From Streptomyces cyanogenus (GTDB lineage: Bacteria > Actinomycetota > Actinomycetes > Streptomycetales > Streptomycetaceae): a stretch of DNA of 64,000 nucleotides. Under the pieces are notes generated by a model, which made no database searches, was not told the DNA's origin, and worked only from the letters and a program-made list of their open reading frames with translations. How positions within the stretch are numbered: position 1 is the stretch's first letter; each line of letters opens with the position of its first letter. Below, one piece after another: positions 16,918-20,288 of this stretch. The stretch is from NCBI RefSeq assembly GCF_017526105.1, contig NZ_CP071839.1, positions 5,967,001 to 6,031,000 on the forward strand. Direction: 5' to 3'. A program made the translations under genes and the position numbers.

Positions 16918-17718
16918 TCACCGCGTGCGCCGGATCCGCACGCTCCAGCGGCCTTCCTGCCGCTCCAGCGCCAGCGGCAGATCGAAACACAGGCCGACCT
17001 GGTCACCGGTGAGCACGGACGCGACCGGACCGGAGGCCGGCACCCGCCCCTCGCGCAGCAGCACGGCGTGCGTGGTGCCCGCCGCCAGCTCCTCCAGGTG
17101 GTGGGTGACCAGCACCGTCGCCAGCGCGGGATGCGCCGTCCGCAGCTCCTCCAGGGCCGCGAGCAGCCGCTCCCGGCCGGGCAGGTCGAGTCCGGTCGCC
17201 GGTTCGTCCAGGAGCAGCAGCCGAGGCTCGGGCATCAGCGCGCGGGCGATCAGCGTCCGGCCGCGCTGCCCCTGCGAGAGCGTCGGCCACCGGGCGTCCC
17301 GCAGCGCGTCCAGCCCCAGCGTGGCCAGCAGCGCCTCGGCCCGCTCCGCCTGCTCGTGGGTGGGCCGCCACCGGGGGAGTGGCTCGACCGAGTTCGTCAG
17401 CCCGGTGAGCACCACGTCCCGCACCCGCAGCGGCGAGGTGAGCGGATGGCGCGGGTTCACGTGTCCGACGAACGCCCGCAGCTCGCGCAGGTCCACCCGG
17501 CCCAGCCGGTGGCCGAGCACCTCCACCGTGCCCCGCGTCGGATGCACCACCGCGCCGAGCAGGCCGAGCAGCGTGGACTTGCCCGCGCCGTTGGTCCCGA
17601 GCAGCGCCCAGTGCTCACCGGCCCGGACGGTCAGCGAGACGTCCCGGAGGAGGGGCCGCCCGTCCCGGACGACGTGCACGTCCTCGGCGCGCAGCACCTC
17701 GGCTGCCGTCCGCGTCAC
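16918..17718 (-). CDS. Stand-alone ABC transporter ATP-binding protein
   Basis: Single nucleotide-binding domain of 266 residues. Walker [10 protein letters not shown] (about residues 41-49), signature LSQGQRGR (about 147), Walker [17 protein letters not shown] (about 166-181) and H-loop VTHHLEE are all intact, so it should hydrolyse ATP. The signature has Gln for the first Gly, like the ModF/YlmA group. No permease or binding-protein gene is adjacent; instead the GTG start overlaps the leuA stop by 4 nt (GTGA), which couples its translation to leucine synthesis. It may energise a permease encoded elsewhere or act in a non-transport role. Function unknown. Confidence 0.88.
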
Positions 17719-19400
17719 CGCATCGCCCGGTTCACCGCGGACAGCACCGCGTGCACGGCGGCCGAGGGGCCCGTGCCCGCTCCCCAGGCCGTGACGCCAC
17801 CGACCCGGCACTCGGCGAAGGCCGTCGTGCCGTCCTCCGCGAAGTCCAGCACGTCGGCCGCGACGCCGACGCCGGCCAGTGCGTCGACGAACGCGGTCAG
17901 TGCACCGGCGCCCGTGCCCTCGTGGTCGCCGACACGGCCCCCGGCCTCCAGCGTGCAGACGAACCGGTGCACACCGGGTGCCTGCTCGTACGAGGACCAG
18001 GCGTGCAGCCGCACCGAGCCTTCCGTCAGATAGGTCGCCCGGAACAGCTCGTACAGCTCCTTCGGCGTCGCCTCCCGCCCGCTGTCGTCCGTCGCCGCCT
18101 GTACGACCCGCGAGAAGTCGGACCGCATGCGCGGCGGCAGGTCGATGCCGTGGTGCGTGCGCAGCAGATACGCCACCCCGCCCTTGCCCGACTGCGAGTT
18201 GACGCGGATCACCGCCTCGTACGACCGCCCGACATCCGCCGGATCGATCGGCAGGTACGGCACCGACCACGGCGCGTCCGCCTCCGGCACACCCGACTCC
18301 CGGGCGCGACGGGCGTGGTGGTCGAGCCCCTTGCCGATCGCGTCCTGATGGGTGCCGGAGAACGCCGTGTACACCAGGTCGCCCGCGTAGGGATGCCGCG
18401 GGTGGACGGGCAGCCGGTTGCAGTGCTCCACCGTCTCCCGTACGGCGTCGATGTCCCCGAAGTCCACCATCGGGTCCACCCCCTGGGCGTACAGGTTGAG
18501 GGCGAGGGTCACCAGGTCGACGTTGCCGGTGCGCTCCCCGTTGCCGAACAGGCAGCCCTCCACCCGCTGGGCGCCGGCCAGCACGGCGAGTTCGGCGCAG
18601 GCGACGCCGGTGCCGCGGTCGTTGTGCGGGTGCACCGAGAGGATCACGGAGTCCCGGCGGGCGAGGTGCCGGTGCACGTACTCGATCTGGTCGGCGTAGA
18701 CGTTCGGGGTGGCGATCTCCACGGTCGCGGGGAGGTTGTGGGTCACCGGGCGGTCCGGGCTCGCGTCCCACAACCCGGTCAGCCCGTCGCAGAGTTCGAG
18801 GACGAAGTCCGGCTCGGTGAGGTTGAAGGTCTCCGGCGAGAACTGGAAGCGGACACCGGGCGCGTCACCGGCCCGCCGGGCCATGTGCTCCGCCGCCTGC
18901 CGCACGGTCCGCCACACCTCGGCCCGGCTGCGGCCGAGCACCACCTCCCGCCACACCTGCGACGTGGCGATGTACAGGTGGACCACGACCCGCGGCAGGC
19001 CCTGGACCGCGTCGAAGGTCCGGTCGATCAGGTCGGCGCGGGCGGGTGTGAAGACGACGGGGGTCACGTCGTCCGGTACCGCCCCGCCGCGCGCGAGGTG
19101 CCGTACGAAGTCGAAGTCCGCGCGGCTCGCGGAGGGGTAGCCGACCTCGATCTCCTTGAAGCCCACCGCGGTCAGCAGGTCGAAGAAGCGGCGCTTGCGG
19201 GGGGTGTCCATCGGCTCGGCGAGCGCCTGGTTGCCGTCGCGCAGGTCGACCGGCACCCAGAGGGGGGCGCGTTCCAGGCGCGCGTCGGGCCAGCGCCGGT
19301 CGCCGGCGGGGACGTGCACGCGGTCCTGGTAGGGGCGGTAGCGGTGGTACGGCATTCCGCTGGACCGCTGCGGGTTCCAGACGGGAGTGGTGGTGGTCAT
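17715..19400 (-). CDS. leuA: 2-isopropylmalate synthase LeuA
   Basis: First committed step of leucine synthesis: acetyl-CoA plus 2-oxoisovalerate gives 2-isopropylmalate. 561 residues, the usual length of the actinobacterial type-2 enzyme. The TIM-barrel domain begins with [10 protein letters not shown] (catalytic/metal region, about residues 50-59) and contains the metal-binding HPHNDRGTG (about 285); the C-terminal 130 residues are the LeuA regulatory domain with Gly-rich turns, so leucine feedback is likely. ATG at 19400 with GAGAGGC upstream. Transcription appears controlled by a leader peptide and hairpin at 19432-19519. The downstream ABC ATPase is coupled. Whether another leuA exists in the genome cannot be seen here. 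Confidence 0.93.
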
Positions 19401-19431
19401 CGTCGGCTGCCTCTCGGCTCGGTCGGACGGC

Positions 19432-19468
19432 GACCGGCAGCGCGGGGCCCCGCGGCGGGGTGCCGGTC
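19432..19468 (-). terminator. Attenuator-like hairpin between the leucine leader peptide and leuA
   Basis: Outer arms 19432-19439 and 19461-19468 (GACCGGCA and its complement) enclose a second, self-complementary GC block at 19441-19454. On the leuA mRNA it starts 3 nt after the leader-peptide stop and ends 31 nt before the leuA start. Alternative pairings between the blocks are possible, as expected of terminator/antiterminator switching. Confidence 0.65.
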
Positions 19469-19471
19469 GTG

Positions 19472-19519
19472 TCAAACCCCGTCGCGGCAGCCGAGGAGGA
19501 GCAGACCGCGGAGTGTCAT
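19472..19519 (-). CDS. Leucine leader peptide of leuA (15 residues)
   Basis: Short reading frame [15 protein letters not shown] upstream of leuA, with four leucine codons in a row (five leucines in 15 residues). Its ATG lies exactly 7 nt after a TAGCGT -10 box, so it would be translated from a leaderless transcript. A stable hairpin follows at once. This is the classical layout of ribosome-mediated attenuation: ribosomes stalled for lack of charged leucyl-tRNA would favour read-through into leuA. The role is inferred from layout and from similar leaders known in actinobacteria. Confidence 0.75.
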
Positions 19520-19526
19520 GCCGGAT

Positions 19527-19556
19527 ACGCTAGTCACTGCTCAGCTCCTCAGACAA
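19527..19556 (-). promoter_or_regulatory. leuA leader promoter (TTGTCT, 18 nt, TAGCGT)
   Basis: On the minus strand TTGTCT (19556-19551) and TAGCGT (19532-19527) are 18 nt apart, close to the vegetative consensus. The predicted start of transcription coincides with the ATG of the leader peptide at 19519. Confidence 0.7.
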
Positions 19557-19582
19557 CTGGAATACACGAACTCCTCAGACAA
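19545..19582. repeat. Direct repeat CTCCTCAGACAA, candidate regulator site
   Basis: Identical 12-mers at 19545-19556 and 19571-19582, 26 bp apart, both in the leuA/gntR intergenic region. The first overlaps the -35 box of the leuA promoter and the second lies 14 nt before the GntR start. This fits a binding site for the divergently encoded GntR protein, which is inference. Confidence 0.55.
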
Positions 19583-19595
19583 GTTGGTGACCTCT

Positions 19596-20288
19596 ATGCC
19601 GCTCGGTGCCCTCCGCCCCAGCCCGCTGGTCGAACAGGCCGCGGAGCACCTCCGGGAGCAGATCGCCGCCGGCCACTGGCCCGTGGGCACGGCGCTGCCC
19701 GGCGAGACCACCCTCGCCAGGGAACTCGGCGTCGGCCGCTCCACCGTCCGTGAGGCACTCCGCGCGCTGGCCGGCGCCGGGCTGGTCCGGCCCCGGCACG
19801 GTGCCGGCGTCTTCGTCATCGCCACAGAGCCCGTCGAGGACTGGCCCACCCGGCTGCGGCGGGCTGCGGTCACCGACGTCTACGAGGTTCGCACGGGCGT
19901 CGAGGTGCAGGCGGCCAGACTGGCCGCGCAGCGTCGTACCCCCGAGGACATCACGGCGCTGCGGGCCGCGCTGGAGGGCCGCCGCACGGCCGCCGCGGGG
20001 GACGACGCCGGCTTCGTGGAGGCCGACATCGCCCTGCACGGGGCCGTGGTCGCCGCCGCCCACAACCCCGTCCTCAGCGACCTGTTCGCCGAGTTCGTCC
20101 CCGTCCTGCGCGAGGGCCTGGTGACCCTGCTGGACCTCACCCGGCTGCGGCACGAGGACGCGAACACCGGCGACGACACCCACGCCGCCCTGGTCCACGC
20201 CGTCGCGGAGGGCGACGCGGACCGGGCGGCGGCCGTCCTGCTGGCGGAACTGGAGCAGACGCTGGAACGCCTGCGCGGACGACGGTGA
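19596..20288 (+). CDS. GntR-family (FadR/FCD) transcriptional regulator
   Basis: Regulator of 230 residues: winged helix at the N-terminus (about residues 10-75, with LPGETTLARELGVGRSTVREALRALAG) followed by an FCD all-helical ligand domain, whose metal-ligand-type residues (D and H in ADIALHGAVV, H near the end) are visible. FCD regulators usually respond to small carboxylates. I take the ATG at 19596; in-frame starts at 19584, 19587 and 19518 exist, but the last would place the start inside the leuA leader region. It diverges from leuA and may control it through the direct repeats between them. The next gene on the strand is an oxidoreductase. Confidence 0.85.
   Translation: MPLGALRPSPLVEQAAEHLREQIAAGHWPVGTALPGETTLARELGVGRSTVREALRALAGAGLVRPRHGAGVFVIATEPVEDWPTRLRRAAVTDVYEVRTGVEVQAARLAAQRRTPEDITALRAALEGRRTAAAGDDAGFVEADIALHGAVVAAAHNPVLSDLFAEFVPVLREGLVTLLDLTRLRHEDANTGDDTHAALVHAVAEGDADRAAAVLLAELEQTLERLRGRR

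Follow-up and report, generated by a model that had tools for sequence, protein, structure and literature searches.

A conserved, probably leaderless leucine leader with a covarying pseudoknot precedes the second leuA gene of Streptomyces cyanogenus

What controls a leuA gene that is preceded by a short reading frame with a run of leucine codons? The question is raised by a locus in the window, that is, the whole stretch of 64,000 nt of S. cyanogenus DNA analysed here, in which the original prediction saw a leucine attenuator with a leaderless leader peptide. The parts that it named, namely promoter-like boxes, an ATG, a peptide with four leucines, its stop, a hairpin and leuA, are all present on the minus strand (Table 1). 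The target gene is indeed a leuA, but it is the second paralog. The genome contains two leuA genes, and the window copy, called leuA2 below, is 52% identical to the housekeeping one. All 121 genomes of the genus Streptomyces carry leuA, and 21 carry a leuA2 at least 70% identical to the window gene. Ten genomes from several actinobacterial genera, checked via their leuA2 locus, each have another leuA with about 50–57% identity to the query. By homology, leuA2 is an accessory second isopropylmalate synthase.

Table 1. Features at and around the leuA2 leader; positions are those of the window.
Feature	Position	Strand	Remark
GntR-family (FCD) transcription regulator, divergent	19596..20288	+	Pfam GntR 1.1e-19, FCD 2.1e-23
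Probable GntR operator, upstream TTGTCTGAGGAG box copy	19571..19582	-	Exact repeat of the other box, 26-bp spacing
Probable operator, downstream TTGTCTGAGGAG copy, overlaps -35	19545..19556	-	Contains TTGTCT
TTGTCT (-35 of the original prediction)	19556-19551	-	18-nt spacer to -10
-10 box TAGCGT (TAnnnT)	19532-19527	-	7 nt before leader ATG
Leader ORF, probably leaderless	ATG 19519, stop codon end 19472	-	Homologous leaders in relatives
Pseudoknot strand a CCGCGACGGGG	19477..19487	-	Within leader ORF; pairs with a'
Pseudoknot strand b GACCGGC	19462..19468	-	Pairs with b', crosses helix a
Pseudoknot strand a' CCCCGCCGCGG	19450..19460	-	Partner of strand a
Pseudoknot strand b' GCCGGTC	19432..19438	-	Partner of strand b
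leuA2 Shine-Dalgarno region GCCGAGAGGCAGCC	19405..19418	-	Possible partner of Leu-codon run
leuA2, second 2-isopropylmalate synthase	17715..19400	-	Pfam HMGL-like and IPMS_D2; NCBIfam 2-isopropylmalate synthase
ABC transporter ATPase, third module member	16918..17718	-	GTG start overlaps leuA2 stop (GTGA)

The leader peptide has 15 residues, four of them encoded by the consecutive leucine codons CTG CTC CTC CTC. Both strands of the window were searched for reading frames of 8–35 codons that begin with ATG or GTG, contain at least three consecutive leucines and have TAnnnT 5–9 nt upstream; the leader was the single match. In first-order Markov simulations, the number expected by chance at a spacing of 6–7 nt is 0.0 per window for four leucines and 0.08 for three. 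Of 80 loci that encode relatives of leuA2, 74 have a short leucine-run ORF upstream, and such a leader is present in all 21 Streptomyces genomes with leuA2 of at least 70% identity. Judged from these comparisons, conservation of the leader is far beyond chance. A comparison of leuA leaders across Streptomyces had been named by the original prediction as a check, and it came out in its favor.

TAGCGT is the sole TAnnnT motif within 140 nt upstream of the leader ATG. A consensus promoter scan, which expects E. coli-like hexamers, returned no promoter here. Among 93 leuA2-type loci, a set in which some species are possibly counted twice, the leader begins with ATG in 79 cases and with GTG in 14, and in 89 TAnnnT stands 6–7 nt ahead of this start. 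An SD-like motif precedes the leader start in none of these 93 loci. In S. lividans, the mean distance from the -10 box to the start is 6.3 nt, and the first base of leaderless transcripts is nearly always a purine (PMC8079986). Initiation on the A of the leader ATG is therefore the expected outcome, and the start of the leuA2 leader probably coincides with the first transcribed base or adjoins it. The statement that no ribosome-binding step precedes the sensor goes too far, since the ribosome must still bind the 5' AUG of a leaderless transcript. The broader claim, that leuA is preceded by a leucine leader peptide which is conserved and probably leaderless, is supported by the homologous leaders in relatives and by the S. 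lividans counterpart LeuL1, which is leaderless by its mapped start (PMC8079986).

The original prediction also described a hairpin with alternative pairing. The hairpin GACCGGC...GCCGGTC lies 3' of the leader stop (19468-19432, with the leuA ATG at 19400), and the alternative pairing strands exist, but they correspond to the pseudoknot of the LEU element and not to a classical terminator and antiterminator; no terminator-like site was found. Strand a consists of the last leader codons and pairs with the downstream strand a'; this helix crosses helix b/b', which gives an H-type pseudoknot. Across 50 sequences, the two helices have 96.8% of their cells paired, against 93.6% in shuffles. The number of double-change cells is 34 versus 8.8 in shuffles, and seven pairs change on both sides versus 2.6 in shuffles; 0 of 500 shuffles reach these values. 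In helix a, 97.8% of cells pair in the same 50 sequences and both-side changes occur at 5 of 11 pairs; in helix b, 95.1% of cells pair. Controls with slid strands had 31–61% of cells paired. Pair changes fall within the leader coding sequence itself; at column 32, for instance, 17 sequences have A-U in place of G-C. The window copy forms 10 of the 11 pairs of helix a, with an A-C mismatch at column 35 that occurs in 0 of the 49 other sequences. The minimum free energy of the leader is at z = -1.48 versus shuffles, and the argument for structure therefore comes from covariation. It is by covariation in the alignment that a pseudoknot is shown to be present in the leuA2 leader family.

To which family does this leader belong? 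A covariance model trained only on leuA2 leaders (R1) also recovers, with 45 bits, the leader upstream of the genome's housekeeping leuA; that gene has its own LEU leader (MRFWLLLLSCRGEGL, then the stop). R1 has matches in 61 of 61 Streptomyces genomes, in most of them at leuA, and the strong ones precede leuA with one exception (L202). Since R1 finds both, the leuA2 and housekeeping leaders form one family, the LEU element. Thus, the leuA2 leader is a LEU element, already known in actinobacteria (PMC1262725). The window leader, itself part of the training set, is a full-length match to the family model (88 bits).

A further weak LEU match in the genome, at 8239213 (E = 0.003), is without a leucine run and was rejected. 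In Rfam, the leader has no match above the gathering score, and at a permissive E-value only chance matches appeared at it (mir-2110 at 0.39). A gathering-level Rfam search of eight relatives returned only an unrelated guanidine-III riboswitch in a Streptomyces leuA2 flank (L020, 980-1040, minus strand). In L202 (G016 contig 219, 1420-1640, minus strand), a leuA2-type LEU leader stands directly 5' of an ABC ATPase gene, and the N-terminus of this ATPase opens with the leuA2 start residues MTTTTP. It appears that leuA2 has been deleted in this locus, which makes it a natural test of leader action on another gene.

As for the function of the leader, we consider it fairly probable that it is a leucine-responsive, leaderless LEU element acting chiefly on translation, with a GntR/FCD layer of transcription control above it. 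RNA polymerase would start at or beside the A of the leader ATG, and ribosomes would load at the extreme 5' end of the mRNA. With ample leucyl-tRNA, the ribosome would complete the 15 codons and depart, and the RNA would fold into the pseudoknot, which may bring the run of leucine codons to the leuA2 Shine-Dalgarno region and mask it. When leucyl-tRNA is scarce, the ribosome would wait on the four leucine codons and keep this strand unpaired; the freed start would then allow translation of leuA2 and of the overlapping ABC gene. The divergent GntR/FCD protein, bound to the two TTGTCTGAGGAG boxes, may control transcription of both genes, as their co-occurrence suggests.

No intrinsic terminator or T-run was found after the leader ORF, so translational control by masking of the Shine-Dalgarno region fits better than classical attenuation. 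In nested folds, which exclude the pseudoknot, masking of the leucine codons raised the mean unpaired probability of the Shine-Dalgarno region from 0.39 to 0.66, and with a ribosome placed at the leader stop its accessibility fell to 0.03. For the housekeeping leader, masking of the leucine codons was without effect in nested folds. Pairing of the leucine run with the Shine-Dalgarno region in relatives is stronger than in shuffles, with a mean z of -1.6 (50 loci) and -1.9 (18 loci). In the window, the duplex energy of this pairing is not stronger than in composition-matched shuffles, 186 of 500 of which reach it.

Leucine-codon mutations in the leuA leader of S. coelicolor were reported to be inconsistent with classical attenuation (PMC1262725). 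These mutants make the main rival a pseudoknot whose reader is a protein or some other factor, with leader translation secondary or irrelevant to regulation. Seliverstov et al. proposed such a reading for the LEU element after the unexpected behavior of the mutants (PMC1262725), and it agrees with the pseudoknot being the most strongly conserved part of the leader. However, the ORF, its leucine run, its start with the -10 box at 6–7 nt and its stop are maintained in the 93 loci, and the leucine run lies outside both covarying helices. We therefore regard this reading as rather unlikely for leuA2.

In classical transcription attenuation, the hairpin after the stop would be a terminator with a competing antiterminator; the original prediction spoke of an attenuator. 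The hairpin does stand directly 3' of the ORF, and LeuL1 of S. lividans is classed among attenuators (PMC8079986), but the same paper gives LeuL1 as having no Rho-independent terminator. With both a terminator-like site and a T-run absent at leuA2, and with the S. coelicolor mutants that did not fit (PMC1262725), this mechanism is very unlikely and the claim is not supported in its original form. Rho-dependent termination in the leader is possible.

The peptide could also be longer, starting from GTG 19537 with GAGGAG as its Shine-Dalgarno sequence, and the transcript would then not be leaderless. In the window, GAGGAG stands 7 nt before this in-frame GTG, and 32 of the 93 loci have a further in-frame start upstream that is accompanied by an SD-like motif. 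However, 28 of the 93 have no in-frame upstream start, the sole TAnnnT in 140 nt sits downstream of GTG 19537, and GAGGAG is part of the box linked to GntR. This makes the longer peptide highly improbable.

Turning to that box, a gntR homolog stands beside 69 of 80 leuA2-type loci, and the TTGTCTGAGGAG box or a close form of it occurs in 70 of 79. A divergent gntR is found in 66 of the 70 loci with the box versus 2 of the 9 without it (Fisher p = 4e-6; the loci are related by descent, and p overstates their independence). Among the upstream regions of housekeeping leuA1, 0 of 40 have the box. The two sites in the window are the only exact TTGTCTGAGGA matches in the 8.77-Mb genome. A wider regulon was rejected, one-mismatch sites in the genome being found only at the level of the reversed-pattern control. 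The box lies 30–38 nt from the leader start in most loci and 52 nt in four. Since this distance varies while the -10 box is fixed, the box cannot always be the -35 element. TTGTCT, which had been taken for the -35, is present with its 18-nt spacer, but it is part of the longer conserved box, whose distance is variable and which is probably an operator. The TTGTCTGAGGAG box is thus probably the operator of the GntR protein, predicted from its association with gntR, and overlaps the -35 in Streptomyces.

In four loci (L015, L021, L052 and L070), the box sits near leuA2, and the search for a leader ORF recognized none. Apparently the leader is dispensable, as these loci keep the box without it; they may have lost the RNA layer and kept the GntR layer. 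The least probable reading, that the GntR protein alone regulates leuA2 and that its leader is merely left over from the housekeeping element, can point to these four loci and to the mismatch in helix a of the window, but the compensatory changes across the leuA2 family indicate selection on the leader, and the window leader, itself in the training set, is still a full-length family-model match.

The ABC ATPase also accompanies this locus. In 34 of 80 loci, its homolog is a neighbor of leuA2 or gntR. In Streptomyces it follows leuA2, whereas Mycolicibacterium, Nocardia and Microbacterium have it on the side of gntR. The C-terminal leucine-feedback domain (LeuA_dimer) of LeuA2 scores 25.5 bits, barely above the Pfam cut-off, versus 115 in the housekeeping LeuA. 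This suggests that feedback inhibition of LeuA2 may be reduced or altered. We tentatively propose, as a possibility short of the probable, that gntR, leuA2 and the ABC ATPase gene form an accessory leucine module with one promoter and two sensors, a GntR/FCD repressor and a leaderless switch of leucine codons and pseudoknot; the feedback domain would have diverged, so that control moved from enzyme inhibition to expression. In the papers searched, no description of a gntR-leuA2-ABC module was found, and the only leuA2 found was an S. avermitilis gene of this name.

The mechanism of the LEU element has been under question since the paradoxical leucine-codon mutants of S. coelicolor. In the leuA2 family there are dozens of divergent copies that covary clearly, the start is defined and a second regulator lies close by, so that tests at the level of helices and codons become straightforward. 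A leaderless-looking sensor ORF is maintained in it over many actinobacterial families. The present analysis adds the paralog, a pseudoknot backed by covariation in many genera, a leaderless geometry that is conserved, and the module of GntR, box, leuA2 and ABC ATPase.

The leaderless sensor as such is not new, as leaderless amino-acid leaders have been described for ilvB and for mycobacterial polycysteine ORFs. The latter (Canestrari et al. 2020) are reported to be alike in that they are short and leaderless, contain one amino acid in abundance and, as a response to it, attenuate the genes downstream; they differ in that this amino acid is cysteine instead of leucine. In Corynebacterium glutamicum, the ilvBNC leader (Morbach et al. 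2000, cited in PMC4046766) is reported to be alike in that its leader peptide is formed without a ribosome-binding site. Terminator hairpins are reported for ilvB leaders (PMC1262725), in contrast to leuA2, which has none. LeuL1 (MRFGLLLLSCRGEGL) of S. lividans leuA (PMC8079986) shares with the window leader the 15 residues, the four consecutive leucines and the lack of a Rho-independent terminator. It differs in belonging to the housekeeping leuA, in its peptide and promoter, and with respect to the GntR box (0/40 leuA1 upstream regions). The closest description is that of the LEU element (Seliverstov et al. 2005, PMC1262725), which has the same upstream ORF with a leucine run, the same two crossing helices before leuA, a possible base stem between the leucine codons and the leuA Shine-Dalgarno sequence, and likewise no obvious terminator. 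In contrast to it, the leuA behind the window copy is the accessory second one, next to a GntR gene in divergent orientation and boxes that resemble operators, and the -10 box lies 6–7 nt from the leader start in leuA2 versus 9–10 nt in the housekeeping leuA1 leaders (41 of 41 examined).
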